A DNA stretch of 53,312 nt from Atribacterota bacterium (lineage in GTDB: Bacteria > Atribacterota > Atribacteria > Atribacterales > Caldatribacteriaceae), in contig JBDIWM010000008.1 in assembly GCA_039638595.1 (NCBI GenBank), forward strand, positions 1 through 53,312, given 5' to 3'. Positions within the stretch are counted from its first letter, which is position 1, and each line of letters begins with the position of its first letter. Under the pieces are notes generated by a model that saw only the letters and a program-made list of their open reading frames with translations, was not told where the DNA came from and did no database searches. This document shows, piece after piece, positions 23,123 through 46,963 of the stretch. The position numbers were made by a program, and so were the translations under genes.

Positions 23123-23159
23123 TTGAGAAATCTCCATGTGTTGTATAATACTCTATAAT
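23123..23159 (+). promoter_or_regulatory. Promoter region of the second sugar transporter operon
   Basis: Two TATAAT boxes (23144-23149 and 23154-23159). TTGAGA at 23123-23128 lies 15 bp before the first. RBS AAAGGAGGCGG precedes the GTG start at 23185. Confidence 0.55.
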
Positions 23160-23184: not shown

Positions 23185-24108
23185 GTGAGGAAATTTTTGC
23201 TTCTGGGATTGATTGTGCTTGTTGGGATGGCTCTGGTGACCTCGCTTGAGGCAGCCCCGAAGAAAGTCGCGGTGCTCACACCGTATCTGGCTTCGGTGAC
23301 CACCAACGAGATGATTCAGGCTTTTGTGGGCTTTGCCAAAGAAAAGGGATGGGACGTGACCGTAATCGACACCAAGGGAGATTTTGGAGCTCTAGCTAAC
23401 CGGTGGGAAGATGTGATTGCTCAGAAGGTAGACGCCATCGTGATGGGAATGGGAGACCCCAACCAGTTCAAAAAGCAAATTGAGATGGCCAACGAAGCTG
23501 GGATTCCGGTTTTTGGTGGCGATGCTGGATACATCGAGGGAATGGTCTGTAATGTAACATCCAATAACTATGTGCTTTCGGCTCAGATTACTTCATATCT
23601 TTTGGATAAGCTAAAGGGCCAGGGAAAGATCGCCAAGCTTTACCACTCAGCTCATCCTGGGGTACAGAAGCGGGAAGTGATTTTTGATGCCATTGTCGAA
23701 AACACTCCAGAAATTGAAGTGGTGGCCGAGCACTGGGTACAGGTTCCTGGACCGATTGAAGATGCCCGAAAAGCGGTGCAAAGCATTCTTCTGGCACACC
23801 CTGATATTAACGCCATCTGGGCTGCCTGGGATGAACCAGCCATTGGGGCATCGCTGGCGATCAAGGAAGCTGGGAAAGAAGGTCAGGTTATTGTGACCGG
23901 AATTGACGGAAATAAGCAAGCTCTAGCAATGATCCGGGATGGTTCACCCATTATCGCTACGGTTAAACAGGATTTTGTGGCCATTGCGCGGATTCTGGTG
24001 GAACAGGTGGAAAAGGTTTTTGCCGGGCAAGAAGTGACGGAACGAATCTTTTATGCCGCGAGTCCTCTGGTGACGAAAGAAAATGTAGAACAGTTTTTGA
24101 ATCAGTAG
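23185..24108 (+). CDS. Sugar ABC transporter substrate-binding protein (second CUT2 system)
   Basis: 307 residues from GTG 23185 behind AAGGAGGCGG. A signal peptide (MRKFLLLGLIVLVGMALV, cleavage near LEA-AP) is followed by the periplasmic-binding-protein type I fold: DAIVMGMGD, EAGIPVFGGDAGY and AWDEPAIGASLA hinge and ligand-pocket regions. It heads an operon with ATPase, permease, a TrpA-like protein and an FGGY kinase. Ligand unknown. Confidence 0.88.
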   Translation: MRKFLLLGLIVLVGMALVTSLEAAPKKVAVLTPYLASVTTNEMIQAFVGFAKEKGWDVTVIDTKGDFGALANRWEDVIAQKVDAIVMGMGDPNQFKKQIEMANEAGIPVFGGDAGYIEGMVCNVTSNNYVLSAQITSYLLDKLKGQGKIAKLYHSAHPGVQKREVIFDAIVENTPEIEVVAEHWVQVPGPIEDARKAVQSILLAHPDINAIWAAWDEPAIGASLAIKEAGKEGQVIVTGIDGNKQALAMIRDGSPIIATVKQDFVAIARILVEQVEKVFAGQEVTERIFYAASPLVTKENVEQFLNQ

Positions 24109-24110
24109 AT

Positions 24111-25613
24111 ATGGTGGAACGGGAAACGGTTCTGGAGATCCGCCATCTGAGTAAGAGCTTCCCGGGGGTTCAGGCCCTCCGGGATGTTTCTTTCGCTCTC
24201 GAGGCAGGGGAAATTGTTGGTTTAGTGGGTGAAAATGGAGCAGGAAAGTCCACTCTGGTGAAAATCCTGGCGGGGATATACCGTCCTGATAGTGGAACAA
24301 TTTGGCTTCGCGGAGTCCCGGTCCATTTTATGCACCCTCAGGATGCCACAGCTCGAGGTCTTTCCTTTGTCCATCAGCAGTTAAATTTGGTTTTTTCTTT
24401 TGACGTGGTGGATAATGTCTTTCTGGGGAGGTGGATGTCCCGCCCCGGTGGGTCGCTTGATAAGAAAGCTATGCGGGATGTCGTGGGAAGACTCTGTCAG
24501 GAATTTGGATTCTCGCTTGACCTCAATACCCCGGTTCGGAAGCTTTCCACCTCGGAACGGTGGATGGTTCAGATTGTTCGAGCGTTTTTGGAAAAGCCCG
24601 TGGTTCTGGTGATGGATGAGCCGACTGCAGCGTTGCCAGAGGAGGAAGTGCAAACCCTTTTCCGAGTGGTGCGGCAAATTGCCGCACAGGGAGTGGCGGT
24701 GCTGTACGTTTCTCACCGCTTGGGAGAGATTTTTTCGCTCTGTCAGCGGGTGGTAGTGCTGCGTAATGGCGAAAAGGTCTGGGATGGTGGACTCTCTGGT
24801 CTTACTCCTCAAGATCTCATTGTTCAAATGGTGGGACCAAAAGAATTTGCTGCACCGTTTTCTCTTCTATCACCGGCAGAAGAAAAAATCCTGGATGTGC
24901 AGTCTCTTTCTGATGGACAGAAGTTGAGGGACATTTCCTTTTCACTTTTTCGAGGGGAAATTTTGGGCGTGTATGGTTTACAAGGGTCGGGGAGGACCGA
25001 ACTTCTGGAAACACTTTTTGGTATCCGCAGGAGAACTGGTGGTGTGGTACTCTTGCGAGGTCAACCTTTTACTCCATCTTCGCCTGAAGAGGCCATCCGG
25101 AAGGGAGTGGCTTTAGTGCCTGAGGACCGAGGGAAAAAGGGACTTATTCTTCAACACTCGCTTTTCGAAAACGTGGCGTTACCTCATCTTGCTTCATACC
25201 GGGGGTTTCTGGGATACTTTCAGGAGCGAAGATTACGACCAATACTGATAAAGGTAGTAGAACGTCTGCATACCCGATATCGATCTCTTGGGGAAAGGGT
25301 GCAGTTTTTAAGCGGAGGGAATCAGCAAAAAGTAGTCTTAGCCAGGTGGTTATTGCGGGATTTTGACCTTTTCCTGCTTGACGAACCCACCGTCGGTGTC
25401 GATGTGGGAGCTCGGCGAGAACTTTACCGGTTCATCCGAGAACTGACCCGGGAAGGGCGAGGGGTTGTGGTGACTTCTTCGGATTTGGAAGAAATTTTTG
25501 AAATCAATCCCCACCGGGTTATGGTTTTGCGAGAGGGAAGGGTGGCTGGAATCCTCTCAGGAAGAGACATCGAACGGCAAACGATTTTGCAACGCTGTTA
25601 CGAGGGAGGATAA
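24111..25613 (+). CDS. Sugar ABC transporter ATPase, two nucleotide-binding domains (second CUT2 system)
   Basis: 500 residues. Domain one: Walker A GENGAGKST and Walker B LVMDEPTAA, with a degenerate signature (LSTSERWMVQ). Domain two: degenerate Walker A GLQGSGRTE, signature LSGGNQQKVVLARW and LLDEPTVGVD. The gene starts two bases after the binding-protein stop, and the permease ATG follows one base after its own stop, so the operon is tightly coupled. Only one domain has a canonical signature, as usual for RbsA-type ATPases. Confidence 0.92.
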   Translation: MVERETVLEIRHLSKSFPGVQALRDVSFALEAGEIVGLVGENGAGKSTLVKILAGIYRPDSGTIWLRGVPVHFMHPQDATARGLSFVHQQLNLVFSFDVVDNVFLGRWMSRPGGSLDKKAMRDVVGRLCQEFGFSLDLNTPVRKLSTSERWMVQIVRAFLEKPVVLVMDEPTAALPEEEVQTLFRVVRQIAAQGVAVLYVSHRLGEIFSLCQRVVVLRNGEKVWDGGLSGLTPQDLIVQMVGPKEFAAPFSLLSPAEEKILDVQSLSDGQKLRDISFSLFRGEILGVYGLQGSGRTELLETLFGIRRRTGGVVLLRGQPFTPSSPEEAIRKGVALVPEDRGKKGLILQHSLFENVALPHLASYRGFLGYFQERRLRPILIKVVERLHTRYRSLGERVQFLSGGNQQKVVLARWLLRDFDLFLLDEPTVGVDVGARRELYRFIRELTREGRGVVVTSSDLEEIFEINPHRVMVLREGRVAGILSGRDIERQTILQRCYEGG

Positions 25614-25614
25614 G

Positions 25615-26544
25615 ATGAAAGACGTTCTCAGGCAGTACGGAACACTCATGTCTTTTTTTGCTTTGCTGGCTTTATTTAGTATTCTGCGGGGAAGTGTCTT
25701 TTTTACTCTGCGGAATTTGATCAACATCACCCAGCAGATTTCCATTCTTATGATGGTAGCCATTGGAGCAACATACATTCTGGCCATCGCGGAGTTTGAT
25801 CTTTCCCTTTCATCTCTGGTTTCGTTCGTGGGGGTGGTGGCCGCTGGTATGATGGCTTCAGGTGTTCATCCCCTCTTGGCTACGGTAACAGCCTTAGGTT
25901 TCTCTATGCTTTTTGGTTTCCTCAATGGAACGCTTGTTGCCACCTTGCGCCTTCCCTCTTTTGTGACCACATTGGCCACCGGAACGCTTCTTGGAGGAAT
26001 CACGTTCTGGTACAGTGGAGGAACCATTATTTTTTCCGGGATTCCCAGAAGTTTTACGGTTCTCGGACAAGAAAGCCTGAAAGGAATACCACTTTCCAGT
26101 ATCTTTATGTTCGTTTTGCTTTTTCTTTCATCATATCTTCTGCTTCGCACCACTTTAGGACAGGCCATCTATGCGGTGGGAGGAAACGAGATTGCCGCCT
26201 GGTACTCGGGTATTCGGGTGTCTCGGGTGAAAATCATCGCTTTTTTTCTGGCAGCTTTTCACAGTGGTTTGGCAGGAATCGTGTTGACGTCTAAGCTCGG
26301 TTCGGCTCATCCTACCGGTGGAGGAGGGTATCTCATGCCTTCCTATGCTGCAGCGTTTCTGGGAACCACACTCTTTCGGGAAGGTGAAGCCAATATCTGG
26401 GGTACCTTTGTCGGAGCGCTCATCATGGGTGTTCTGGCCAATGGCCTCACCATTCTCAACGTTCCCTACTTTCTTCAGGATATATTTACCGGGATGATCC
26501 TCGTAGGGGCACTGATTTTGCGTGCTTCTCGGGAAAGGAGTTAG
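25615..26544 (+). CDS. Sugar ABC transporter permease (second CUT2 system)
   Basis: 309 residues, hydrophobic, RbsC-like. The ATG at 25615 is preceded by GGGAGG within the ATPase end. Family marks: AIGATYILAIAEFDLS (early membrane loop), VGGNEIAAWYSGIRV in the middle and a late conserved loop region. The late loop FLGTTLFREGEANIWGT replaces the GG-L-GG-G sequence seen in the other two permeases. Confidence 0.88.
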   Translation: MKDVLRQYGTLMSFFALLALFSILRGSVFFTLRNLINITQQISILMMVAIGATYILAIAEFDLSLSSLVSFVGVVAAGMMASGVHPLLATVTALGFSMLFGFLNGTLVATLRLPSFVTTLATGTLLGGITFWYSGGTIIFSGIPRSFTVLGQESLKGIPLSSIFMFVLLFLSSYLLLRTTLGQAIYAVGGNEIAAWYSGIRVSRVKIIAFFLAAFHSGLAGIVLTSKLGSAHPTGGGGYLMPSYAAAFLGTTLFREGEANIWGTFVGALIMGVLANGLTILNVPYFLQDIFTGMILVGALILRASRERS

Positions 26545-26546
26545 TT

Positions 26547-27269
26547 GTGCAGGTTATTCCCTATCTTCTGGTTGGATTTCCGGACCAGATTGCTTTTCTC
26601 CACCATTTGTACTCTTTTCTTGAAAATCCGCATTTTCCTTTTGTAGAAGTAGGACTTCCGGCCCAACGTCCCTACCTCGATGGGAAGGTCATTCGCTCGG
26701 CGCAAAAGTGGGTTCGTAAAGCTGGTATGACCTTTAGAAAGGCACTTCAGTTTCTGGAGGATATATCTTGGGGAGGAAGGGTTCGGAAAATGGTCCTCAT
26801 GGGATATCTTCGGGACCTTGAGGAATTTGGATTGGAGGAATTTGAGGTAAAGACTCACGATGCTCGTCTTGGGGGGATGGTTCTCGTGGGCCAGCGTCGA
26901 AAAGTCCTTACTTGCCAATCCCGGCTGACGATTCCCCTGGTACCGGTGGTGACGGTGAAGGACACCGAGAGCACCCTTCGGCCATTTTTCCAGGGGCGTC
27001 CTCCCTTCATCTATTTTCGGGTCAGTAGTGGAAAAACTGGAGAGGGTGGTCTTCTCCCCCTTCCACTTCTTGAGGAATCGCTCAGAAAGTTAAGAAAAGC
27101 ATATCCGGAGATCCCCATCTTTGCCGGATTTGGAGTGCGTGACCGGGAAACAGCACGCTTTCTTCGGGATATTGGTTTTTCTGGGGTAGTGGTAGGAAGT
27201 GTTCTTCTAAGAATAATGATGGAGGACCGCCCTATGGAGGATTTTCTGCGCGAACTGGAGGAATTATAG
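26547..27269 (+). CDS. TrpA-like TIM-barrel protein of unknown role in a sugar operon
   Basis: 240 residues (GTG start behind GGAG) resembling tryptophan synthase alpha: the early PYLLVGFPD, FVEVGLP carrying the Glu49-equivalent, PYLDGKVI carrying the Asp60-equivalent, KMVLMGYLRD, IYFRVSSGKTGEG in the phosphate loop region, and AGFGVRDRET...GVVVGSVLLR at the phosphate site. It is shorter than TrpA (about 265) and has no TrpB or other trp gene nearby. It follows a sugar permease and precedes an FGGY kinase, with one base shared with the latter. TrpA cleaves a phosphorylated triose-bearing substrate; a retro-aldol role on the imported compound is my inference. Confidence 0.75.
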   Translation: MQVIPYLLVGFPDQIAFLHHLYSFLENPHFPFVEVGLPAQRPYLDGKVIRSAQKWVRKAGMTFRKALQFLEDISWGGRVRKMVLMGYLRDLEEFGLEEFEVKTHDARLGGMVLVGQRRKVLTCQSRLTIPLVPVVTVKDTESTLRPFFQGRPPFIYFRVSSGKTGEGGLLPLPLLEESLRKLRKAYPEIPIFAGFGVRDRETARFLRDIGFSGVVVGSVLLRIMMEDRPMEDFLRELEEL

Positions 27270-28687
27270 TGGCACTTTTAACCTTCGATGTGGGAACAAG
27301 TGCGGTGAAGGTCGCTCTTTTTTCTGAAGGGGGAGAATTATTGGACTCTTCTTCTTGTCCCCTTGTCACCCGGGTAGAGGGACGCAGGGTCACTCAGGAC
27401 CCGGAGGTTTGGTGGGAGGGATTCCTTACAGGGGCTCGGAAATGTCTGAGTACTTTTCATGGCGGTGAACTTTTCATCATGGGAACCGGTCAGATGGAAG
27501 ACCTGCTCCTCCTCGATGAAGAAGGAAAACCCTTGCAGGAAGCTTCCCTCTACAGCGATTCGGATATCGGGGATTACGTGTTTCCAGAAGAATTGAGGCG
27601 ATCTCTGGAAGAAAAGATACCCAATCGGCTGGACAACTTTACTCCTCTAGTCAAAGTGATGGCCCTTTCTTCGTCCCCCGTTTTTCAGAGAGTTCGTTTT
27701 CTCATTCTGGGGGCCAAAGATTATGTCAATTTTCGACTTACTGGGAATTCGGTGACTGACCCCACCAATGCTTCCACCACGGGTTTTTTTAACGGTTATG
27801 CATTCCAATGGGTGGAAGAAACTCAAGCTTTCTTTCCCCTGTTACCTACTCTTTCCTCACCCACACAGATTATCGGAAGGGTGCGCAAAGAAGTTTTGCC
27901 GCTTTTGGGTTTGGAAGAAGACCTGGAAGTTTCGGTATTCAATGGAATTGGGGATCTTGGTGCGGTCACCCTGGGAGCAGGGGTGCTTCTTCCTGGGGAG
28001 GGCTATGGGTATCTGGGTACCACTGGCTGGATGGCTTTGCTCAGGGAAGCACCTTCTTCCAGTAAGGACCTTTTTTCGCTGGCTTTCCTGAAGAAAGGAG
28101 AGTGGATGGTCGTGGCACCGCTTCTCAATCTGGGGAATGTATACCAGTGGTCGATGAAAACCTTTTTGCAAAGCGGGGATTACGCGCAAAGCGAAGCGAT
28201 GCTTTCCCAGCACCTTACCACTCCTGTCCAGGTCTGGCCGTATCTCAACGGGGAACGAACTCCTTTTCGTAACGAACGGGTCCGAGCGGTGATGGCACGC
28301 CTGGTAGAGGGTACTACACCAGGGGAACTCCATGCTGCTTGTTTACGGAGCCTTCTGTTTGCCCTGCGTCATGCCTATGAGGCTCTGGGGACGGAAATTC
28401 CAGTGCTACGTCTTACCGGTGGTCTTACCCGGGGAGAAACCTTTGTGCAGGGTTTAAGTGACCTTCTGCGAAAGCCCTGCCAGGTGGTACAGGAGGATGC
28501 CTTTGCACCCCAGCGGGGTCTTTATCGCCTTTTTTGTCTTCATCGAGGAATCAATCCACCCCCCTTTTTGGTCGAACGGGTCTATACGCCCCGGGATCAT
28601 CCTCTCTTAGAGCAGTATTACCGGGAGTACCGAAACTTTGCTGAAAAGCTCCTTCGGGGGGAAGCCGGCGTTCCAACTTATCTTTAA
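27269..28687 (+). CDS. FGGY-family carbohydrate kinase
   Basis: 472 residues from GTG 27269. The first ATP/sugar loop is LLTFDVGTSAVKVALF. TQDPEVWWE follows, typical of xylulokinase-like members, then NASTTGFFN and GAGVLLPGEGYGYLGTTGW. Near residue 390 RLTGGLTRGETFVQGLSDLLRKP is the FGGY signature region. It phosphorylates a sugar or polyol, probably the compound brought in by the preceding transporter. Together with the TrpA-like protein it suggests phosphorylation then cleavage. Confidence 0.9.
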   Translation: MALLTFDVGTSAVKVALFSEGGELLDSSSCPLVTRVEGRRVTQDPEVWWEGFLTGARKCLSTFHGGELFIMGTGQMEDLLLLDEEGKPLQEASLYSDSDIGDYVFPEELRRSLEEKIPNRLDNFTPLVKVMALSSSPVFQRVRFLILGAKDYVNFRLTGNSVTDPTNASTTGFFNGYAFQWVEETQAFFPLLPTLSSPTQIIGRVRKEVLPLLGLEEDLEVSVFNGIGDLGAVTLGAGVLLPGEGYGYLGTTGWMALLREAPSSSKDLFSLAFLKKGEWMVVAPLLNLGNVYQWSMKTFLQSGDYAQSEAMLSQHLTTPVQVWPYLNGERTPFRNERVRAVMARLVEGTTPGELHAACLRSLLFALRHAYEALGTEIPVLRLTGGLTRGETFVQGLSDLLRKPCQVVQEDAFAPQRGLYRLFCLHRGINPPPFLVERVYTPRDHPLLEQYYREYRNFAEKLLRGEAGVPTYL

Positions 28688-35514: not shown

Positions 35515-36702
35515 ATGGCTGGTGTTTACCAGGCGAAAGTTCATGAGGAAAACCTGAGACGGGTTATCCGTTTCGTCCACCGACAAGGGACCACCAATCG
35601 TGTAGCAATTGCCCGGGCTTTGAATCTCAGTTTGTCTACGGTCACCAACCTGGTTGCAGAACTGAAACAACAAGGTCTCATCCAAGAAGGAGGTTCGGGT
35701 CAATCGACGGGGGGAAGGAAGCCCCTCCTTCTTCACTTTAACCGGGAATGGGGTCTGGTGGTGGCGGTCAAGATTGGGGCTCGTCGGGTGCACGTGGGGT
35801 TAGCCAATCTCGATGGGGAGCTTAAGTTCAAGGAAGTGGTACCTCTTATTTCTCATGAACCGCAGGCCATCGTAGGACAGATTGTGCATCTCGTCTCGCA
35901 GATGCTTTCCAGAAATGGTTACTCTCGCATTATCGGGATGGGGGTTTGCTGTCCAGGTATTATTGACCCCCGCAAGGGTGAAGTGATTAAGGCAGTAAAC
36001 CTTCACTGGGAGAACGTACCGCTCCAGGAAATGCTTGCTCCTCATTTTTCCTGGCCAGTTTTTGTGGAAAACAGCCTCGATACTGGGGCACTGGGGGAAA
36101 AATGGTTTGGTGTGGGTAGAGATGTTCAGGACCTTCTCTATATCAATGTGGGGAATGGCGTGGGAGCGGGGATCATTTCCCACGGCGAACTTCTCGAGGG
36201 GTACCAGCATGGGGCAGGAGAATTTGGACATATGAGTATCGACCTTTCTGGACCCCCGTGTCCGTGTGGAAACCGGGGATGTGTGGAGCTCTATGTTTCG
36301 GCCCCGGCGTTGGTGAGAAAAACTCAGGAGTACATTAAAAAAGGGGGCAAAACCCGTATTGCCCATTTGGTTGATGACATCTCCGGTGACTTTTCCTGTG
36401 AGGTGATTGACCAGGCGGCATATCTAGGGGATTTCTTTGCCCTCACGCTTTGGAAAGAGACGGGAAAAATTCTTGGCCGAGCCGTCGCGAACCTTGTGAA
36501 CCTCTTGGACCCCCAGGTTGTGGTTATCGGTGGAGGCCTATCTCTGGCCCATCCAGCTTTTCTGGAAAGCGTTGCTGAAACAGTTTGGGAGATTACGGCT
36601 TCGCTTCATCGAAGGAAAGTGGAAATCCGACGAGCATTTTTTGGTCGTGATTCGGGCCTGGTGGGCGCAGCGGCGTTAACGGTGGAGCGTATTTTTGCCT
36701 GA
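35515..36702 (+). CDS. ROK-family transcriptional repressor (NagC/XylR type)
   Basis: 395 residues. The N-terminal winged helix-turn-helix is about 20-65 (TTNRVAIARALNLSLSTVTN). The ROK domain has GIIDPRKGEV, NVGNGVGAGII, GEFGHMSI and the zinc-binding CPCGNRGCVELY (about 245-260). No full catalytic need: it is a sugar-responsive repressor like NagC. It heads a transcript with amino-sugar genes (NagB-like, NagA), matching an aminosugar-6-phosphate or sugar inducer. Confidence 0.9.
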   Translation: MAGVYQAKVHEENLRRVIRFVHRQGTTNRVAIARALNLSLSTVTNLVAELKQQGLIQEGGSGQSTGGRKPLLLHFNREWGLVVAVKIGARRVHVGLANLDGELKFKEVVPLISHEPQAIVGQIVHLVSQMLSRNGYSRIIGMGVCCPGIIDPRKGEVIKAVNLHWENVPLQEMLAPHFSWPVFVENSLDTGALGEKWFGVGRDVQDLLYINVGNGVGAGIISHGELLEGYQHGAGEFGHMSIDLSGPPCPCGNRGCVELYVSAPALVRKTQEYIKKGGKTRIAHLVDDISGDFSCEVIDQAAYLGDFFALTLWKETGKILGRAVANLVNLLDPQVVVIGGGLSLAHPAFLESVAETVWEITASLHRRKVEIRRAFFGRDSGLVGAAALTVERIFA

Positions 36703-36727
36703 GGTAGGACAAGAGAAGGAGGGGAAA

Positions 36728-37858
36728 ATGGAGCCGCGAGAACGTATCCGCAGAGTCTTGAAGAGAGAGGGAAAGGTTGATTCCACCCCCTGGAGCCTGT
36801 TTTTCGGGGCGACGCCTTCGTTGACACCAGCCTTTTTCGAAAAGTTTGTGGTCCAGAGTGGGATTCGTGATGTCGCTGAATATTTTGGCTTTGAAGTTCG
36901 CATTGCCCATTCAGATGATGTCGACCCCTTCTACCATACAACGACCGCGCATTATGGGTTGCGGATGACGTCCAATGGAATTGGCAGAGAATTTTTCCAG
37001 GAGAAGTTGCCTGAAGATGCAGCATTTTCGCCCTGGGGGGTGGGGATTCTGCCCTGGCCAGATAACCCTGGCTGTGAACGAATGTTCCATCCGTTATCGG
37101 GAGAGCGCACCGTAAAGGAGATTGAACAGTATCCTTCACCGGGTATTGATGCAGAAAGCATGGAGAAAGTTCACCAGAAGGCACAGGAAATCCGCGAGAG
37201 AGGGTATCTACCGGCAGCGTACTGTGGGAGTCTTTATGAGTGGTGTCACTGGATACGGGGGATGGAGGACTTCATGGTGGATTTGATGATCTATCGAGAG
37301 AGGGCTCAGGCACTCATTGAAAAAGTAGCTACGTTCACTCTTTCGTTTGCCCGTGCACATGCTCTTTGTGGTGTGGAGCTTCTCTGTTTCTATGACGATT
37401 ACGGTATGCAGGACCGTTTGCAAATTCCGCCCCGTGTTTTTCGGGAGTTGTTCAAGCCCTGGTGGAAGAGAATCATCGCCACGTTGCAGAGGGAATTTCC
37501 AGAATCACTCTTTTTCCTCCATTCCTGCGGCAGGGTGGAGGAGATTATTCCGGATCTCATCGAAGCAGGCTTCGATGTCCTTCATCCATTGCAGCCAGAA
37601 TGCCATGATGTTACTGAGGTGGTAGCTCGGTACCGAAAACAAATGACTTTCTGGGGGACCATGAGTAACCAAAGGACCCTTCCTCTGGGCAAAAGAGAAG
37701 AGGTAGAGGAAGAAACCAGACACAGAATGCAGCTCGCTTTATCGATGGGGAATGTGATTCCTTCTCCTGCGAATACCATTGGTCCCGAAGTACCGGTGGA
37801 AAACGTTCTGGCCTTTACCGAGGTGTGTCGACAAATGCGAGTTTGGGAAAGGAGGTGA
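36728..37858 (+). CDS. Uroporphyrinogen decarboxylase-family / methyltransferase-like protein
   Basis: 376 residues from ATG 36728 behind AGAAGGAGGGG. URO-D superfamily TIM barrel: MEPRERIRRVLKREG start, LFFGATPS, LCFYDDYGMQ and LFFLHSCGRVEEIIPDLIEAGFD. H265-S-C267 matches the H-x-C half of the zinc site of MtaA/MtbA-type corrinoid methyltransferases; C292 and C367 are candidate third ligands. It is not next to heme genes but inside an amino-sugar operon, so decarboxylation of a porphyrin is unlikely. A methyl or similar transfer on a modified sugar is possible but unproven. Confidence 0.75.
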   Translation: MEPRERIRRVLKREGKVDSTPWSLFFGATPSLTPAFFEKFVVQSGIRDVAEYFGFEVRIAHSDDVDPFYHTTTAHYGLRMTSNGIGREFFQEKLPEDAAFSPWGVGILPWPDNPGCERMFHPLSGERTVKEIEQYPSPGIDAESMEKVHQKAQEIRERGYLPAAYCGSLYEWCHWIRGMEDFMVDLMIYRERAQALIEKVATFTLSFARAHALCGVELLCFYDDYGMQDRLQIPPRVFRELFKPWWKRIIATLQREFPESLFFLHSCGRVEEIIPDLIEAGFDVLHPLQPECHDVTEVVARYRKQMTFWGTMSNQRTLPLGKREEVEEETRHRMQLALSMGNVIPSPANTIGPEVPVENVLAFTEVCRQMRVWERR

Positions 37859-37937
37859 GATTAGGGATCAAGGCGTTTGGGTATTTGGGTGTTGAAGAGA
37901 AGTGAAAAGAAGTTTCATGAAAGGGGAGGTGTTTCTG

Positions 37938-38957
37938 GTGAAGAAATTCGGAATGACGATTCTGGTGATGTTTCTTGTGGTGCTCTTCGTTATAACGGCT
38001 ATAGGTGTTGCGGCAGAAAAAACCTACACCGTGGGTGTGGTGATTCCGTATGAAATTGGATGGTTTACGGCCTTTCATAAGGGTTTTGAACAGATTGCCA
38101 ATAAGGAAGGCGTAAAGATTGTCTGGCAGTACCACAATTACAAAGCGGATGAGGAAACCAAAGCCATCCAGAACCTGATCACCATGGGTGTGGATGCCAT
38201 CAATCTCACCGCGGTGACCCCTTCGAGCGCTGAGTACTCCTGCCGCCTGGCAAACGAGGCGAATATCCCCATTCAGATTACCGAAAGTGGTATCGCTGAA
38301 GGGAAGGGAAAACCCGTTGCTGACATCGATTTTAACTGGTTTGATGTGTACCGCACGGTAGCCACGAGCCTCCGTCGCGATATACCTGGAGAACTGAAGG
38401 TAGTCTGGATCCAGGGGTTTGCCGGGACGCCGCCAGTCATGCAGGGAATCCAGGGATTTATGGATACCATTAAAACTCTAGAAGGGATTAGTTTGGCCAC
38501 CGATGTGCAGTACGGTGATTACGCCACTGCACCATCTCTCAATATTATCAAAACCTTAGTGCAGTCGGGTCTTGAATTTAACGTGGCCATCGGTGCTTGT
38601 CAGGAAATTACCGAAGGCATCATTCAGGGATTGCGAGAGGAGAACGTGGACCTCGACAAGGTCACCATTGTTACCGTCAACGGTGGACCCATGGATGTGG
38701 AGAACGTGAAGAAGGGATACATTGACTATATCCTGAGTCTCTCTCCAGGACTCCATGGCATGATTTGTGCTCAGAACCTCATCAACTACCTCAAAGGGAG
38801 AGAGTACCAGAAGAAGAGTTATTCGCCAATTGTCTGGTGCAGCAAAGCCGACTGGGAAGAGAAGCTCATTCCCTGGTTTCTGGATGAAAGCTGGTTCCCG
38901 GTGGTGGAAGAGTTCGCCAGAACCGGTCAGTATAAGCCTGAATTGAGGGCAAAATAG
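37938..38957 (+). CDS. Sugar ABC transporter substrate-binding protein (third CUT2 system)
   Basis: 339 residues from GTG 37938 behind GGGGAGG; an upstream ATG at 37902 would spoil the signal peptide. Signal peptide hydrophobic core near VMFLVVLFVITAIGV, then YTVGVVIPYEIGWF and the periplasmic-binding-protein fold with AINLTAVTPSSAEYS (hinge) and a repeat of LVQSGLEFNV. Its genomic neighbours are NagA and a NagB-like protein, so an amino sugar or its oligomer is a plausible ligand. Confidence 0.87.
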   Translation: MKKFGMTILVMFLVVLFVITAIGVAAEKTYTVGVVIPYEIGWFTAFHKGFEQIANKEGVKIVWQYHNYKADEETKAIQNLITMGVDAINLTAVTPSSAEYSCRLANEANIPIQITESGIAEGKGKPVADIDFNWFDVYRTVATSLRRDIPGELKVVWIQGFAGTPPVMQGIQGFMDTIKTLEGISLATDVQYGDYATAPSLNIIKTLVQSGLEFNVAIGACQEITEGIIQGLREENVDLDKVTIVTVNGGPMDVENVKKGYIDYILSLSPGLHGMICAQNLINYLKGREYQKKSYSPIVWCSKADWEEKLIPWFLDESWFPVVEEFARTGQYKPELRAK

Positions 38958-38993
38958 AAAAAAATGCGAGGGGGTACCCCCTCGCATTTTTTT
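38958..38993 (+). terminator. 36 bp perfect palindrome with A/T flanks, after the third binding-protein gene
   Basis: AAAAAAATGCGAGGGGGT and its exact reverse complement, starting right after the stop codon and ending in a T-run. It can act as a partial terminator, or as an RNA-stabilising hairpin, ahead of the ATPase gene. The first CUT2 operon has a similar palindrome in the same place (5199-5228), the second has none. Confidence 0.8.
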
Positions 38994-39017
38994 CTCGATT
39001 GGGGGAGGTTTATTTCT

Positions 39018-40541
39018 TTGTCAAGCACAGCGTATATTTTGAACTTGAAGGAGATCAGTAAGAGCTATCCCGGTGTGCAAGCTCTGGATAGGGTATCCAT
39101 GGATGTGGCCTATGGTGAAGTCCATGCTCTGGTGGGACAGAATGGTGCTGGGAAATCAACGCTTATTGAGATCATTGCCGGAGCCCTCCATCCTGATGGG
39201 GGAGAGATTGTCTACGAAGGGCACACCTATACGCACTTTGAGCCGTGGCAGGCGATTCGCCTTGGCATTCAAACGGTGCATCAGGAAAACCAGCTGGTGG
39301 AAGAGCTGACTGTGGCTGAGAATCTCTACCTCTTTGAGCTTCCGGTTCGCCGAGGAGGGGTGGTGGATTATGTCGGTTGTTGGCGTATCGCCCAGGAACT
39401 TTTGCAGAAGCTCGACATCCACATTGCTCCAGATAAAAAGGTGCGCGGGCTTTCTTTTGTCGATAAGAAGCTGGTGAGCATCGCCAAGGCCTTCGCTCGT
39501 CCCGTGAAACTCCTCATTCTTGATGAGCCGACGGCGTCTCTGGATGAATGCGGGAAAAACATTCTTTTCGATATTATTCGGTCCCATAAGGTTCAGGGCT
39601 TGAGCACGATTTACATTTCGCATAACTTAAGCGAAATTTTTGAAATCTGTGACCGTGTCACCATTCTGAAAGATGGACAGAAAGTAGCTACCTATTCCTT
39701 GCAGGATATCACCATGGATGAAGTCATTCGCAAGATGATTGGCAGTTCCCAGGTGACACTCTACAAGAGAGAGAAGATGTCCCGTGCCTCGCGAGAGGAT
39801 GAAACTTTGGAAGTGCGAAATTACAGTCGGCAAGGTGTCATTCATGGTGTTTCTTTCAAGGTACGAAGGGGAGAAATTTTTGGGCTGGCAGGACTGGTGG
39901 GTTCGGGCCGAACGGAACTGGTGCGTATGATATTTGGATTAGACCCCAAAGATTCGGGTACTCTCCTGTACCAGGGTAGAGACATCACTCCCAGGAATCC
40001 TTATGATGCCATTCAAAAAGGCATTGGATACCTTACCGAAGACCGCAAGAGTGACGGGCTTTTGCTGTCGCGGCCAGTGATGGAGAACATGAGCCTTGCT
40101 TCGGTGGCCAAAGATAATGGTTTGCTGTTGAATCTGGGGAGGGAGTATCATGAGTCGATCGCGCTTACCGGACGCTTGAACGTGAAAACGCCGTCGATTT
40201 TCCAGCGGGTGGTGAACTTGAGCGGTGGGAATCAACAGAAAGTGGTTCTGGCCAAGTGGTTGCAGACTCAGGCGGAAGTGCTGATTTTCGATGAACCGAC
40301 GGTGGGTGTCGATGTAGGAGCCAAAGTGGAGATTTACCGAATGATTGAAGAACTGGTGCACCATGGCAAAATCGTCATTGTGATTTCTTCGGATAACCCA
40401 GAACTGGTAGCGCTCTGCGACCGCGTTGGAGTCATGCGGAATGGACGTCTGGTGGCTATTCTTGAGGGCGATGAAGTGACCGAGGAGAACATTGTGCGTT
40501 ATGCCATGGGTGTCTGCGAAGGGATGGAGGTGTCAGGGTGA
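39018..40541 (+). CDS. Sugar ABC transporter ATPase, two nucleotide-binding domains (third CUT2 system)
   Basis: 507 residues from TTG 39018, nine bases after GGGGGAGG; the open frame extends upstream into the palindrome. Domain one: Walker A GQNGAGKST, degenerate signature LSFVDKKLV and Walker B LILDEPTASLD. Domain two: GLVGSGRTELVRMIFG, signature LSGGNQQKVVLAKW and IFDEPTVGVD. Standard RbsA-like arrangement. The permease begins on its last base. Confidence 0.91.
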   Translation: MSSTAYILNLKEISKSYPGVQALDRVSMDVAYGEVHALVGQNGAGKSTLIEIIAGALHPDGGEIVYEGHTYTHFEPWQAIRLGIQTVHQENQLVEELTVAENLYLFELPVRRGGVVDYVGCWRIAQELLQKLDIHIAPDKKVRGLSFVDKKLVSIAKAFARPVKLLILDEPTASLDECGKNILFDIIRSHKVQGLSTIYISHNLSEIFEICDRVTILKDGQKVATYSLQDITMDEVIRKMIGSSQVTLYKREKMSRASREDETLEVRNYSRQGVIHGVSFKVRRGEIFGLAGLVGSGRTELVRMIFGLDPKDSGTLLYQGRDITPRNPYDAIQKGIGYLTEDRKSDGLLLSRPVMENMSLASVAKDNGLLLNLGREYHESIALTGRLNVKTPSIFQRVVNLSGGNQQKVVLAKWLQTQAEVLIFDEPTVGVDVGAKVEIYRMIEELVHHGKIVIVISSDNPELVALCDRVGVMRNGRLVAILEGDEVTEENIVRYAMGVCEGMEVSG

Positions 40542-41542
40542 TGGCGAGAGGCTTGAGGGCTTTTTTTCGGAAGCGAGCTTCCATTGAGCAGGCTTATATT
40601 CTTTTACTCCTGATTGTGGCGATTTCGGTGGTCACCACCATTGTGAACCGACGCTTTGTCAATCCGACCAACATTATCAATATCTTTCAACAGATTGCAG
40701 TCTTAGGTATTGTGGCAAGTGGCGTAGGTATGCTTCTTGTTTCAGGGCATGTGGATATTTCGGTTGGTTCCCAGGTATCGCTTCTGGGGGTTATTTTTGC
40801 CATGCTCATTCAAAGAATCCTCGGTCTTCCGGAAGGGAATGTGGCACCCTGGCGCCAAACTTTTGTGTATCCGATTGCTTTTGTGGTAACTTTTGGCATT
40901 GGAGCTCTGGTCGGTTTCGCGAATGGGGTAACGGTAGTTAAGTCCAGAGCCAATTCGTTCATTATCTCTTTGGGTTTTATGTCGGCCTACCATGGCTTGG
41001 CGCTCCTGGTTACTGGAGGTGCATCCTACATGCTTTTCGGGCGATTTGAAACCCTGGGAAGAGGCCGTCTTTTCCATTATCTTCCCATTTCGATTCTCTT
41101 TTTCCTGGGGGTGGTCTTTCTTTCTTACCTGATTTTGAAATATTTCCGGTATGGACGGTTTCTCTACGCCATTGGAAGCAATCGCCGGGCGGCGCACGTT
41201 TCGGGAATCAATACCGACCGGGTGGTGATTCGAGCGTATACCGTGGTGGGAATACTGAACGCTCTGGCGGCCATCATTCTCATTTCTCGGGTGGGCTCAG
41301 CGCTGGCTACAACCGGTGATGCCTATGCTCTGGATGCACTGGCTTCAGTCATTGTGGGAGGGGTAGCACTCTCGGGTGGTAAAGGTGGAGCGCTCAACAT
41401 TTTTCTGGGGGTGGTGCTGATCGGGTTAATCGGAAATGCCCTCATTATCATGAACGTCAACCCCTATGCCCGGGATTTGGTGATTGGACTGATTATTATT
41501 GCTGCAGTAACACTCAGTCAACTTTCTGAGAGCCGATCATAG
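40541..41542 (+). CDS. Sugar ABC transporter permease (third CUT2 system)
   Basis: 333 residues. The ATG shares one base with the ATPase stop (TGATG), with GGAGG upstream; GTG 40538 is an alternative. Hydrophobic RbsC-like protein with a GHVDISVG early motif, IGSNRRAAHVSGI, and a late IVGGVALSGGKGG ATPase-contact loop. Completes the transporter of the amino-sugar operon. Confidence 0.9.
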   Translation: MARGLRAFFRKRASIEQAYILLLLIVAISVVTTIVNRRFVNPTNIINIFQQIAVLGIVASGVGMLLVSGHVDISVGSQVSLLGVIFAMLIQRILGLPEGNVAPWRQTFVYPIAFVVTFGIGALVGFANGVTVVKSRANSFIISLGFMSAYHGLALLVTGGASYMLFGRFETLGRGRLFHYLPISILFFLGVVFLSYLILKYFRYGRFLYAIGSNRRAAHVSGINTDRVVIRAYTVVGILNALAAIILISRVGSALATTGDAYALDALASVIVGGVALSGGKGGALNIFLGVVLIGLIGNALIIMNVNPYARDLVIGLIIIAAVTLSQLSESRS

Positions 41543-41556
41543 AGGGAGGGATTGAG

Positions 41557-42519
41557 ATGGGAAAGATTAATCTTTTGAATACCATTCGGGGGTCTTTATT
41601 TGAAGGATTTTTTCCGGAAGCGTGGGATTTAGAACGGATGGACTGGTGTTGTAGCCAGCCACCGGAGGCGGTGTACCAGAGAGAACCCTGGTGGCATGAG
41701 CGGTTTCAGCCGGTTGGTTGCCCAACCCTCGAAGACTTCAATACCCTTATGGGACACGAAATTGCCTACCAGATCAAACTTACCAAAGACGAGGGGCGGG
41801 ATTGTATTCTCATTCTCTCGGTCGGTCCCATGGGGATGTATCGCTGGGCGGTGGAATTTCTAAAAAGATGGGGGGTTGATTGTCAGCACGTCCATGGGTT
41901 CAACATGGATGAGTGGTGTGATACCGAGGGAAACACTTTACCGGCAAGCGACCCGGGAGCGTTTCGCAATGCTATGGAGTCGTCGCTCTATGGCCCCTTG
42001 GGAGAATTGACCGTTCCTGAAAAACAGAGACATTTTGCCACCCGGGAAGAACTCCCCACCTATGCGGAGCGCATTGGAGCATTACGTGCCAAGGGAGCAA
42101 AGTTTATACTCATCTATGGCATTGGCTGGGTTTTTCATATCGCTTTTTGGGAGCCCCATTTTGCGGCGGATTACGCCAGCATGGAGGAGTGGTTGAAACC
42201 CACCCACCGGGTGGCTGCGAAACTCCATCCTCTGACGATTATTCAGAATTCCATTACCAGCTTCCGGAGTCGTATTACCCTGGTGCCGGCAAGGGCTAAT
42301 ACCATTGGACCGGGAATCTTTATGCAGGCTGACTATACCATTGGGGGAGTTGATGGGTATTTACCCTGTCGCCGAATGATGTATCAGGCCCATGCCCTGT
42401 GGGTGACGTTAAAATACGGGCCAGATATGTGGGTTCCCTCTTCAGTGATGCCGCAATTGCCGGGAAAACTCTTTTTCGTGGCACCGCTGGCTGGGCCACT
42501 GGAACCCGAGGTTAACTGA
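41557..42519 (+). CDS. NagB-like protein lacking a canonical catalytic Asp
   Basis: 320 residues, related to glucosamine-6-phosphate deaminase/isomerase. HGFNMDEWCD corresponds to NagB FNMDEY (catalytic Asp). In the second active-site loop NagB has GIGxDGHIAFNEP, while here it reads GIGWVFHIAFWEPH: the general-base Asp is replaced (V), while His and Glu remain. The protein is longer than NagB (about 265) with an N-terminal extension including DWCCSQPPEAVY. It precedes nagA by two bases. It probably isomerises or deaminates a different amino-sugar derivative. Confidence 0.75.
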   Translation: MGKINLLNTIRGSLFEGFFPEAWDLERMDWCCSQPPEAVYQREPWWHERFQPVGCPTLEDFNTLMGHEIAYQIKLTKDEGRDCILILSVGPMGMYRWAVEFLKRWGVDCQHVHGFNMDEWCDTEGNTLPASDPGAFRNAMESSLYGPLGELTVPEKQRHFATREELPTYAERIGALRAKGAKFILIYGIGWVFHIAFWEPHFAADYASMEEWLKPTHRVAAKLHPLTIIQNSITSFRSRITLVPARANTIGPGIFMQADYTIGGVDGYLPCRRMMYQAHALWVTLKYGPDMWVPSSVMPQLPGKLFFVAPLAGPLEPEVN

Positions 42520-42521
42520 CC

Positions 42522-43724
42522 ATGTGGGATTATTTACTCTATGGAGGAAAAGTGATCACCGAAAATGAAGTCCTCCCCAGAGGATATGTGGCCATTTGTG
42601 AGGGTCGGATTGTTTCTCTGGGGGAGAACTGGAATGAGGTCAAGGCAAAGAACTGTTTGGATGTTTCGGGTTTCATTGTGAGCCCCGGCTTCATTGACAT
42701 GCACACCCACGGTATTTTTGATGTCGACTTTGTGGAGGGAGATGTAGAGCGTATTGCTTCAGGTCTTTCTCACTATCTCTCCTTCGGTGTTACCAAGGTG
42801 GTGGCCTCGACCATCTCCCGGCCCCTTCCAGAAACAGTGGAACAGATTCAACGCTTGCGGCAGGTGAAGGAGAGTAATTATGGTCGAATTCTCCATGGTG
42901 TGCATCTTGAGGGACCGTGGCTTTCACCCCGATGTCGAGGTGGTCATCCTCTCCAGTACCTCCGTGTGCCCAGTAAAGAGGATGTAGCCTTTGTACTGGG
43001 GGAAGTGGGCGATGTGCTGGTAACGGTGACCTTTGCGCCAGAGCTTCCCAATGCGGTGTGGCTTGCAGAGACGCTTACTTACCGGGGGATTATTCCGGTC
43101 ATCGGGCACACCGAAGCAAGTTATGAGGAGGCTGAACGGGTTATTCGGGCTGGAGCGCGCCATGTGACCCACATGTACGATGGAACCTTGGGATATCGGG
43201 AAAATCCCCAGGAAGCGCTGGTGATGCTTCCCGGTGTCGAAACAGCAGTGCTCTTTTATGACACGGTGAGTGTTGAACTCATTGGATGTCCTGTGCATGT
43301 TCCACCTCCCTTTTTTAAGTTCATTCACAAGGTAAAACCCAAGGGGAAGAAAGTGCTTGTTACCGATTCGCTGGTAGGGACGGGTATGCCTGAGGGAACG
43401 GTCCTCACTTACCGGGATGGTCGAAAGGTGCGGGTGGCGGAGAACGTAATCCGGATGATTGATGAGGATCCGGCTATTGACGGTAATTTAACTGGGAGCG
43501 GGGTTACCATGAATGTGGCACTGCGGAGATTGAAAGAGTATACAGGGATTCCGCTCGAAGAAGCCATTGCCTGGGGCGCCATCAACCCGGCTTCGGTTCT
43601 TGGTATTGATAAAGAGGTCGGAAGCATTGCGGTGGGGAAGCAGGCGGACCTGGTGGTCATCGATGAAAATTTTGAAGCGCAGTACACCTTTTTGGCCGGA
43701 GACCTGGTTTTTCGGAAATCGTAA
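42522..43724 (+). CDS. nagA: N-acetylglucosamine-6-phosphate deacetylase
   Basis: 400 residues, amidohydrolase fold. FIDMHTHGIFDVDF (HxH metal site, about 63-70), HLEGPWLSP (Glu), IGHTEASYEEA and HVTHMYDG (His ligands) and the general acid/base VTDSLVGTG are all in place. The overall order is that of NagA. It removes the acetyl group from an N-acetylamino-sugar 6-phosphate. The operon has no obvious kinase, so the sugar may be phosphorylated by a gene elsewhere. Confidence 0.9.
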   Translation: MWDYLLYGGKVITENEVLPRGYVAICEGRIVSLGENWNEVKAKNCLDVSGFIVSPGFIDMHTHGIFDVDFVEGDVERIASGLSHYLSFGVTKVVASTISRPLPETVEQIQRLRQVKESNYGRILHGVHLEGPWLSPRCRGGHPLQYLRVPSKEDVAFVLGEVGDVLVTVTFAPELPNAVWLAETLTYRGIIPVIGHTEASYEEAERVIRAGARHVTHMYDGTLGYRENPQEALVMLPGVETAVLFYDTVSVELIGCPVHVPPPFFKFIHKVKPKGKKVLVTDSLVGTGMPEGTVLTYRDGRKVRVAENVIRMIDEDPAIDGNLTGSGVTMNVALRRLKEYTGIPLEEAIAWGAINPASVLGIDKEVGSIAVGKQADLVVIDENFEAQYTFLAGDLVFRKS

Positions 43725-43738
43725 AAGGAGGGAATACT

Positions 43739-45883
43739 ATGTCTTCGTTCACACATCTTTTTGAACCGATTTGGATTGGCAATGTGGAAATTCCCAATCG
43801 TATTTGCCACGTGCCAACCGATATCAGCTCCGCTCATGCCGATGGCTCAGTGAGCGCTCGGGATATTCATCACCATGCTACCATCGCCAAAGGGGGAACC
43901 GGTTTTATCATCGTGGGGGCAACTTCCCCTCAGGGGAATACCGGTCGCTCTACGGTGACATGCCTTGTGGCTGATGGGGATGAATACATTCCGGGATTAG
44001 CACGTTTGGCGGAAGCTATGCACCGCTACGGAGCAAAATGTGCGGTGCAACTGCAGCATCCCGGTCGACAGGCAGCGTTGCCCCGTTCGGGGAAATTTGC
44101 TTCCACCGATATGGTGGTGAATTTGCCCTGGTCACAGAGCCGTCCTATCCTCTATGCCAGTGAGGAGGAGAGTGTAACCCGTAAATCGGTTCACGTTCTG
44201 ACCACCGATGAAATCATTGTTTTGATTGACCTTTTTGCGGAGGCGTCCTGGCGGGTAAAACAGGCTGGTTTTGATGCCGTGGAACTCCATGCCGCACACG
44301 GGTATCTCATTTCGGAGTTTATGAGCCCTTATTTGAATCGTCGCACTGACCGATTTGGGGGAAGCTTTGATAATCGGATGCGTTTCCCCCTGGCTATCAT
44401 CGAGGCCATTCAAAAAAAGTGTGGGCGGGATTTTCCGGTGCTTGTACGCTATTCGGTGGATGAATGGGTGCCGGGAGGGAGGGAGTTGCCGGAGTCCATT
44501 CAGGTAGCGAAGGTTTTTGAAGAAGCTGGGGTGGCGGCACTGGATCTCAGTCAGTGCATTCAGGAAAGTCCCGGGGCAGGGTTTGACCCCATGTACTATG
44601 AAGAAGGATGGACGATATACGCTTCAGAAGCCATTAAGAAGGAAGTGAAAATTCCGGTCATTAACAGCCATTCTCTACGTAATCCGGAGTACTGTGAGAA
44701 GATCCTTGCTGAAGGGAAGACCGACATGGTGGGCCTTTCGCGGCAACTCCTGGCTGATCCTTACTGGCCGATTAAGGCTAAATACGGCCAGGTGAGATCA
44801 ATTCGCCGTTGCATTTCCTGCCTCACGGGATGCTGGCAGGAATCACTCATGGCGAAAAAGGAAATTGCTTGTGCCATCAACCCTGCTTGTGGTAATGCTG
44901 CTTTTGAAATCCGCGATCGAGTGACGCAACCTCTGCGTGTTGCGGTCGTGGGAGGGGGACCGGCAGGAATGGAAGCAGCCAGACACGCTGCAGAGAGAGG
45001 ACACCAGGTTACCCTTTACGAAAAGACCGGGGAACTCGGGGGTGCAATTTTGGGATGTTGTCTGACGCCGGGGAAGGAGAAAATGAAGTGGTACGCCGAC
45101 TGGATTCGAAACGAAATCAATCGGCTTGATATTGACCTGCGACTTCGATGTGCGCCTTCCTGGGAGGAACTCGCCCAGTACGATGCGGTCATCAATGCCA
45201 CCGGAGCACATTCCTACGTTCCTCGGGTAGCGGGAATGGTAGAACGAGTGATTCCCTTTGAGGCAATTCTTGCTTGTCCAAAAGTTTCCTGCGAATTTCA
45301 TCCCAAAGACGGAAGAAAACCCCAAAAAATCGAAGGAGAACGGGTCATTGTCTGGGGAGACCACTATCCGGCAGCAGACACTGCAGCATTTCTGGCTTCT
45401 ATTGGGAAAGCGGTCACCATTGTTACACCGTATAAAGAATTTGGGTCTACGATTGAGGTCATCCACATGTACGTTTTACGAAAGCGATTCCAGCAGAAGG
45501 ACGCTGAAGCCCTTCATTCCAAACCCTTCCGGTACCCGGTGACGGTATTTCCAAACAGTATACTTTTGGAAATCGGGGATGGTACAGTAACGCTCCTGCG
45601 TAATGGTGAATTTTGGTCCCTTCCGTATGATGCCATCGTGACCTGCTTTACTCGGCCTGACGCAGAGATCTTTACCCAACTGAGAAATCATGGGGTTCCG
45701 GTGGTCAGTGTGGGTGATGCCGTAAAACCCCGTAACCTCCACGCTGCAGTGAAAGAGGGTGCCTGGGCGGGGTTAACTGTGGAAAAGGGACGGTTATATA
45801 ATCCTAATGGTGCTTTCGTCAACGATTTGCCGTTAGATGTCGAAAGTCAAATTCTGGGCCTGGGAGAGAAAGAGGAGGGATAA
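43739..45883 (+). CDS. Old-Yellow-Enzyme-type Fe-S flavoprotein (second copy)
   Basis: 714 residues with the same three parts as the protein at 10520-12457: FMN barrel (ELHAAHGYLISEF, FDNRMRF), a 4Fe-4S site (CISCLTGC plus a cysteine in IACAINP, about 360-380) and a FAD/NAD(P) part (VVGGGPAGMEA). The second Rossmann motif (VIVWGDHYPAADTAAF) lacks the usual GGG, so nucleotide specificity may differ. Here it lies in an amino-sugar operon between nagA and a Gfo/Idh/MocA dehydrogenase. Its likely role is an oxidation or reduction of the sugar or an attached group. Confidence 0.86.
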   Translation: MSSFTHLFEPIWIGNVEIPNRICHVPTDISSAHADGSVSARDIHHHATIAKGGTGFIIVGATSPQGNTGRSTVTCLVADGDEYIPGLARLAEAMHRYGAKCAVQLQHPGRQAALPRSGKFASTDMVVNLPWSQSRPILYASEEESVTRKSVHVLTTDEIIVLIDLFAEASWRVKQAGFDAVELHAAHGYLISEFMSPYLNRRTDRFGGSFDNRMRFPLAIIEAIQKKCGRDFPVLVRYSVDEWVPGGRELPESIQVAKVFEEAGVAALDLSQCIQESPGAGFDPMYYEEGWTIYASEAIKKEVKIPVINSHSLRNPEYCEKILAEGKTDMVGLSRQLLADPYWPIKAKYGQVRSIRRCISCLTGCWQESLMAKKEIACAINPACGNAAFEIRDRVTQPLRVAVVGGGPAGMEAARHAAERGHQVTLYEKTGELGGAILGCCLTPGKEKMKWYADWIRNEINRLDIDLRLRCAPSWEELAQYDAVINATGAHSYVPRVAGMVERVIPFEAILACPKVSCEFHPKDGRKPQKIEGERVIVWGDHYPAADTAAFLASIGKAVTIVTPYKEFGSTIEVIHMYVLRKRFQQKDAEALHSKPFRYPVTVFPNSILLEIGDGTVTLLRNGEFWSLPYDAIVTCFTRPDAEIFTQLRNHGVPVVSVGDAVKPRNLHAAVKEGAWAGLTVEKGRLYNPNGAFVNDLPLDVESQILGLGEKEEG

Positions 45884-45885
45884 GC

Positions 45886-46953
45886 ATGGTATTACGAACG
45901 CTGGTAGTTGGTGTTGGGGGGATGGGAGCATCACATGCTAAGGCGTATGCCCTTTTGCCTTATTTTGAGATCGTAGGGTTCGTAGTGGCCAAAAACGTGG
46001 AACGGGCAAAGAAGCTTGCGCAGGAACTTGACCTTTCGGTACCGGTTTTCACCGATTACTATGAAGCAATGCGTGTTACCAACCCTCAAGTGGTCTCCAT
46101 CAATACCTATGTGGATACCCATGCTGAGTACGCCATTTATGCCATGCAGAAAGGGGCTCATGTTTTCCTGGAGAAACCCATTGCGCAAACCGTTGCGGAG
46201 GGAAAACGAGTGGTACAAGTTGCCCAAGAGACAAAGCGAAAGCTCGTGGTTGGCTATATTCTGCGACATCACCCGGCCTGGCAGAGGTTTGTCGATTATG
46301 CCTGGAAGATGGGGAAGCCTCTGGTTATGCGGATGAACCTGAATCAACAGAGTTTCGGTCGCGAATGGATGGTACACAAGGAATTCATCCGGCGTATGCC
46401 TCCCCTTGTGGACTGTGGTATCCACTATGTGGATGTTATGTGTCGGATGGTTCAAGCCAAACCCACTCGGGTACATGGGATTGCGGCACGGTTGACGAAT
46501 GAAATTCCTCCAGATACCCACAACTACGGGGCACTCCAGATCGTCTTTGAAGATGGCTCGGTGGGGTGGTACGAAGTGGGTTGGGGTCCAATGATAAGTA
46601 GAACCGCCTTTTTTGTAAAGGACGTCATTGGACCGAAAGGGTCAGTCAGTATCGGTAAAGATGTGAGCGCTGTTGACCCTTCCGATGTATCCCAGCACAC
46701 CGCGGTGAATACATTGGTTGTTCACTGGAGTGATACCGATAGCGAAGGAAAAAGAATGCGTGAAGATGAGTATATCGAGATTTCCGATGAACCGAGTCAT
46801 GAGGAATTGTGTCAACGTGAACAGGAGTACCTCTATCAGGCGATTGTTGAAGACCTCGACCTCTCGCAGGAGCTTAAGGATGCGGTGGAAAGTCTTCGGA
46901 TTTGTTTTGGGGCAGTGGAGTCCTATTTAACAGGGCATGCCGTTTCGCTATGA
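45886..46953 (+). CDS. Gfo/Idh/MocA-family dehydrogenase
   Basis: 355 residues. N-terminal Rossmann motif VGVGGMGASHAKAY, then the EKP signature (FLEKPIAQT, near residue 97) and a C-terminal alpha/beta domain with VDCGIHYVDVMCRM for the catalytic Asp/His. It oxidises or reduces a sugar or inositol-like compound with NAD(P). It starts two bases after the flavoprotein stop. Confidence 0.87.
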   Translation: MVLRTLVVGVGGMGASHAKAYALLPYFEIVGFVVAKNVERAKKLAQELDLSVPVFTDYYEAMRVTNPQVVSINTYVDTHAEYAIYAMQKGAHVFLEKPIAQTVAEGKRVVQVAQETKRKLVVGYILRHHPAWQRFVDYAWKMGKPLVMRMNLNQQSFGREWMVHKEFIRRMPPLVDCGIHYVDVMCRMVQAKPTRVHGIAARLTNEIPPDTHNYGALQIVFEDGSVGWYEVGWGPMISRTAFFVKDVIGPKGSVSIGKDVSAVDPSDVSQHTAVNTLVVHWSDTDSEGKRMREDEYIEISDEPSHEELCQREQEYLYQAIVEDLDLSQELKDAVESLRICFGAVESYLTGHAVSL

Positions 46954-46963
46954 GGAGGATACA

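Follow-up and report, generated by a model that had tools for sequence, protein, structure and literature searches.

Introduction

TrpA ordinarily depends on TrpB for its activity and pairs with it through Asp56, and in its established mechanism the indole ring stabilises the leaving carbanion, with neither a Schiff-base lysine nor a metal taking part. The Lsr system for AI-2 uptake combines a CUT2 importer with the FGGY kinase LsrK and the TIM-barrel enzyme LsrF. Both maize BX1 and the TrpA of C. glutamicum cleave indole-glycerol phosphate (IGP) without TrpB (PMC11574760, PMC9100643), and tryptophan itself is taken up by TrpXYZ, an ABC importer controlled by a tryptophan (Trp) T-box (PMC9382623).

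The locus described here has features of each of these systems. It lies in a window of 53,312 nucleotides, the whole stretch of DNA that was analysed (contig JBDIWM010000008.1 of assembly GCA_039638595.1, an Atribacterota bacterium of the Caldatribacteriaceae). Like TrpA (TIGR00262/PF00290), its central protein is a TIM barrel with the catalytic Glu/Asp pair, the phosphate-binding glycines and the aromatic residues of the indole site, but it falls below the equivalog cut-off, has no TrpB in its operon, has Asp56 replaced and is tied to an importer and a kinase. With the plant IGP lyases (maize BX1/IGL) it shares equal catalytic residues and the character of a TrpA paralogue that would act without TrpB (PMC11574760, PMC9100643); however, it is bacterial, separately derived and would be fed by import and phosphorylation where BX1 is fed by TrpC, and its lyase activity is putative. 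The layout is that of Lsr, a CUT2 importer, an FGGY kinase and a TIM-barrel enzyme acting on a phosphorylated ligand, with weak NCBIfam matches, but the kinase is not LsrK (33.9 bits against 528), the TIM barrel is of the TrpA type, and relatives carry trpBA and Trp T-boxes. Those relatives resemble TrpXYZ in having an ABC importer whose Trp T-box ties it to the supply of tryptophan, but theirs is a CUT2 sugar-type importer accompanied by a kinase and TrpBA, which suggests that the imported compound needs phosphorylation.

A five-gene operon in the window

The unit is encoded on the forward strand and comprises a CUT2 binding protein (23185-24108; PF13407, 5e-38), a CUT2 double-ABC ATPase (24111-25613; PF00005 in two stretches), a CUT2 permease of the BPD_transp_2 type (25615-26544; PF02653, 1.5e-31), a TrpA-like protein of 240 amino acids (26547-27269) and an FGGY kinase of 472 amino acids (27269-28687; PF00370/PF02782), the last two with GTG starts. 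Successive gaps are 2, 1, 2 and -1 bp, and the unit is uninterrupted. The importer upstream of the TrpA-like gene is complete, with a Peripla_BP_4 binding protein, a double-domain ATPase and the permease, and base 27269 is common to the TrpA-like stop and the kinase start (TAGTG, a 1-bp overlap); this agrees with the sequence-only reading, which had remarked on the shared base and on a CUT2 permease upstream. A sigma-70-like promoter (TTGAGA-N15-TATAAT, 23123-23149, forward strand) stands ahead of the operon, and no T-box or other riboswitch was detected in the leader. It had also been claimed that no TrpB or other trp gene is near, and a tblastn search of the window with the genome's own six trp proteins indeed gave no match at E<=0.01, so that the window holds no trpB. 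The same genome carries a complete trpEDCFBA operon, its trpBA canonical, on a different contig (C5), and the host can therefore make IGP itself; given this operon and the missed equivalog score, we rejected the idea that the TrpA-like gene is a misplaced ordinary trpA.

Among 50 genomes of the phylum, most of them metagenome-assembled (MAGs), the TrpA-like protein is found in a single family, where three genera have it. A scan of contigs for close orthologues of the window copy found only two, in Candidatus Caldatribacterium saccharofermentans (G011) and an Atribacteria MAG (G008), with identities of 54% and 44%. The order of the five genes is identical in all three genera despite this divergence, and the linkage of the operon is consequently beyond chance; the link to the kinase is thus conserved. 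Promoter-like boxes lie at the equivalent position ahead of the binding-protein gene in both relatives.

The window has other features. A c-di-GMP-I riboswitch (2878-2961, reverse strand, 78 bits) lies just upstream of a 371-amino-acid reverse-strand ORF (1750-2865) with a carboxypeptidase-regulatory-like domain. A second large catabolic cluster, at 36695-48346, encodes a URO-D-like protein, a CUT2 binding protein, an amidohydrolase, an FMN-dependent oxidoreductase and a GFO/IDH/MocA oxidoreductase, together with two ORFs (41557-42519 and 46937-48346) that have no Pfam match.

A divergent TrpA homologue

The TrpA-like protein is a true member of the Trp_syntA fold. It matches PF00290 at 2e-26 (92.9 bits, cut-off 27) and TrpA structures in the PDB at 4e-17, and its AlphaFold model (pLDDT 78.5, pTM 0.81) returns TrpA and BX1 chains at the top of a Foldseek search, the leading matches including PDB 1tjr and 1rd5. 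E34 (in EVGLP) and D45 (in PYLDG) correspond to E49 and D60 of Salmonella TrpA and are invariant in the three orthologues, as are TG 164-165, GFG 194-196 and GS 217-218 of the phosphate site; the earlier description of a TrpA homologue with both catalytic acids and the phosphate site thus holds. Tyr87, Tyr156 and Phe195 of the indole site are also retained.

Other features set the protein apart from canonical TrpA. All three orthologues miss the TIGR00262 equivalog cut-off of 102.35 bits (70.3 for the window's protein, 62.3 and 93.4 for the others), while 195-257 bits were obtained for the four canonical TrpAs that were scanned. Asp56, the TrpB contact that is present with rare exceptions in the canonical TrpAs compared, has been replaced by R, N or H, the SDP motif becoming QRP, RNP or HNP, and an invariant extra arginine, R158, stands in place of a hydrophobic residue. 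With about 3.4 changes per site, the branch leading to these proteins is long, and its length together with R158 suggests that the substrate may have shifted. In the tree they group with the operon-linked TrpA of another atribacterial genome, G026 (96/93; 93/93 with one long branch removed), and this nearest relative (93-96% support) has a TrpB partner and retains Asp56. In its genomic setting the protein has the marks of a stand-alone IGP lyase of the BX1/IGL type, being a TrpA paralogue apart from a TrpB partner gene with the catalytic pair retained. Since BX1 and C. glutamicum TrpA are active alone, we propose from these sequence features that it is a putative stand-alone, BX1-like IGP lyase.

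The importer and kinase accompany trpBA in relatives

With a profile of the binding protein, eleven more genomes of the phylum yield an orthologue, and so do three Nitratireductor plasmids, which were found in the plasmid collection only; about 340 other bacterial genomes sampled across the domain gave no close orthologue outside the phylum. The window's binding protein is 88% identical to that of G011, 81% to that of G008 and 42% to that of Nitratireductor, and 53-60% identical to members that are elsewhere linked to trpBA or the kinase.

In family f3 of the same order (G015, G017, G019, G020, G022, G023 and G024), the binding-protein gene lies directly 3' of trpA. The complete genome among these, G017, has the arrangement trpB-trpA-binding protein-ATPase-permease-kinase in full, and the remaining members are fragmentary. 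G026 belongs to a third family, and its contigs C260 and C40 share 127 identical overlapping bases; when joined they read T-box, binding protein, ATPase, permease, kinase, trpB, trpA. On the Nitratireductor plasmids trpBA is divergent beside the kinase, binding protein, ATPase and permease. An f3 genome that lacks the importer, G018, served as a control and has no transporter after trpBA. The operon-linked TrpAs do not share a clade, some being native atribacterial, some native alphaproteobacterial and some of the G026 type, which argues that the tie between importer-kinase and TrpA arose more than once. The system also occurs in other states: G002, G014 and G016 have importer and kinase without an adjacent trp gene; the binding protein is truncated in both G020 and G022, where the importer has decayed and trpBA is retained, G022 also missing the ATPase and having its kinase in fragments; and no kinase of the system clade was detected in G024.

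On the Nitratireductor plasmids, trpB-trpA occurs without trpF or accD and near phosphonate-transport genes, possibly as a second, dedicated tryptophan synthase, and on the N. kimnyeongensis plasmid inositol genes are also near. Two other sets of genes were considered and rejected. A binding-protein relative in Rhizobium BG6 (43% identity) differs in its motifs and kinase and has an amidohydrolase-type neighbourhood. In Rhizobium, Sinorhizobium and Tritonibacter, an importer set with a 33%-identical binding protein is a different system, adjoined by acetoin-dehydrogenase-like genes and another FGGY kinase; with its E1alpha/E1beta acetoin-dehydrogenase-like proteins and a carboxymuconolactone-decarboxylase-family protein, it looks like an import-cleave system for an acetoin-like sugar.

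The kinase has both FGGY_N and FGGY_C domains and scores 170 bits on the xylulokinase XylB model (TIGR01312), below the equivalog cut-off of 380. Whether or not the copy is linked to trpBA, the kinases of the system form one clade (100/98); full-length members score 610-764 bits, and the other FGGY kinases of those genomes reach at most 402. Motifs of the binding protein and the kinase are kept across all genomic settings of the system, so that one substrate is likely throughout. We propose that the window's kinase is a putative indole-3-glycerol kinase and its binding protein a putative indole-glycerol binder. The kinase motifs SGQMQN, LYSD, NASTTG and HLGTTGW are also present in PDB 3hz6/3kzb, a Chromobacterium violaceum 'xylulokinase' that may be misnamed.

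Tryptophan T-boxes and genomes without trpEDCF

T-boxes precede the trpBA-importer operons in four f3 genomes (G015, G017, G020 and G024); that of G026 lies ahead of the importer gene itself. In all five the specifier reads UGG (Trp). Control T-boxes in related genomes, whose downstream genes were named by eye, gave AUG ahead of a putative homocysteine-biosynthesis gene, CUC ahead of ilvD-like genes, UCC ahead of a serine-type aminotransferase and UGG ahead of trpE and a putative TrpX-like gene (G018); the Met, Leu and Ser T-boxes thus give the expected codons. The specifier of G026 has one extra base, and AUG can also be read there by eye; however, its antiterminator is UGGC, matching the trpE T-boxes shown where Met T-boxes have UGGU, and this, with a one-purine spacing, favours UGG. 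The antiterminator of the f3 trpBA T-boxes is UGGU and their specifier is unambiguously UGG. Because UGG T-boxes lead these operons, a shortage of tryptophan most probably switches on importer and kinase in the organisms that carry them.

Several of the genomes that retain trpBA appear to lack the preceding steps of the pathway. In G015, which is 98% complete, trpBA and the system kinase are present, while nothing matches trpE, trpD, trpC (PF00218) or trpF (PF00697), and G024 (92%), G026 (89%) and G022 (75%) have trpBA but none of trpEDCF over the cut-off; all four genes are present in G017, G023 and G019. As trpEDCF form one cluster, each absence could be an assembly gap in a single genome, but gaps in four trpBA-retaining genomes together are unlikely. 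If there is no TrpC, IGP must come from another source, and the simplest source in genomes without trpEDCF is imported indole-3-glycerol phosphorylated by the kinase.

Discussion

Our essential contention, to which we assign a probability of about 0.52, is that the operon encodes a precursor-salvage module that imports indole-3-glycerol, phosphorylates it to IGP and cleaves this to indole and glyceraldehyde 3-phosphate. The CUT2 importer would take up indole-3-glycerol or a very close IGP precursor, the FGGY kinase would phosphorylate its terminal hydroxyl, and the TrpA-like protein would perform a TrpA-type retro-aldol cleavage of the resulting IGP. The indole might then be used by the TrpB that the chromosomal trp operon encodes, or in part leave the cell. 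In the relatives, the last steps would be carried out by ordinary TrpBA from the same operon, induced through the T-box on tryptophan starvation; in Caldatribacteriaceae, TrpB was apparently lost from the unit and TrpA would have diverged into a stand-alone, BX1-like enzyme. While the link of importer and kinase to tryptophan is well supported, we infer the exact substrate, the activities of kinase and lyase, and the fate of the indole. Several observations run against salvage: the window's operon has no T-box and its host makes its own IGP; G002, G014 and G016 have no adjacent trp gene; the importer has decayed in G020 and G022; and G024 has no matching kinase. In the open-access literature searched, indole-3-glycerol is not documented as a natural nutrient, and the search brought up neither an importer nor a kinase for indole-glycerol.

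The sequence-only reading had proposed transport, phosphorylation and retro-aldol cleavage of an unknown carbon source. Its TrpA-type logic stands, but sugar breakdown is not supported, since importer and kinase orthologues share operons with genuine trpBA under Trp T-boxes, which indicates indole-glycerol chemistry and tryptophan supply. Homologues lying with TrpB, which that reading regarded as evidence against itself, are found among relatives of the importer-kinase system and not with the two close TrpA-like homologues. A catabolic variant in Caldatribacteriaceae is possible, and in its clearest form the TrpA-like protein would there be a ketose- or polyol-phosphate aldolase serving carbon-source use, with glyceraldehyde 3-phosphate entering glycolysis. 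CUT2 importers and FGGY kinases usually belong to sugar systems, and such a role would also suit a protein on a long branch, below the trpA cut-off and with R158 invariant where a hydrophobic residue stood, in a family with no Trp T-box and a genome with a complete trp operon elsewhere. However, importer and kinase are tied elsewhere to trpBA and Trp T-boxes, the three indole-site residues are kept, and TrpA chemistry, having no Schiff-base lysine or metal, needs the indole ring for the leaving carbanion. We therefore consider a sugar-phosphate aldolase in Caldatribacteriaceae doubtful, and less likely than IGP salvage.

Somewhat less probable still is the import of a related indole or anthranilate derivative, such as a substituted indole-glycerol or other indole-polyol, from which the substituted indole freed might be usable by TrpB. 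The same genomic evidence (trpBA linkage, T-boxes and kinase clade) would apply, a modified ring would accord with how far the TrpA-like protein has diverged, and the solved relatives of the binding protein, 3l49 and 4wt7, likewise have tryptophan at the W215 position; yet genomes that have the T-box and lack trpEDCF require tryptophan itself, an argument for unsubstituted indole-3-glycerol in those organisms. That the importer serves an unrelated sugar or polyol, its trpBA neighbourhood reflecting shared regulation or chance order and the TrpA-like protein being a relic, is the least credible explanation, for although the closest solved binding proteins are annotated as ribose or sugar binders and G002, G014 and G016 carry importer and kinase without trp genes, TrpA linkage occurs in three separate lineages, in G026 it is the importer gene that a Trp T-box precedes, three genera have an unbroken TrpA-like ORF whose catalytic residues do not vary, and G018, where the importer is absent, has no transporter after trpBA.

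The wider claim is of a new tryptophan route, in which CUT2 import of indole-3-glycerol and an FGGY indole-3-glycerol kinase allow entry at IGP and tryptophan synthesis without trpEDCF, the Caldatribacteriaceae unit having evolved a bacterial stand-alone IGP lyase; we think the chances of this evenly balanced. If true, tryptophan biosynthesis would have an entry point missed by current annotation, and genomes scored as auxotrophs for absent trpEDCF could live on exchanged indole-glycerol. A substrate would be assigned to an FGGY kinase subfamily that, judging by shared motifs, apparently includes the structural-genomics 'xylulokinase' 3hz6, and bacteria would possess a natural TrpB-independent IGP lyase. 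Salvage of this kind would also point to metabolite exchange in anaerobic subsurface communities.
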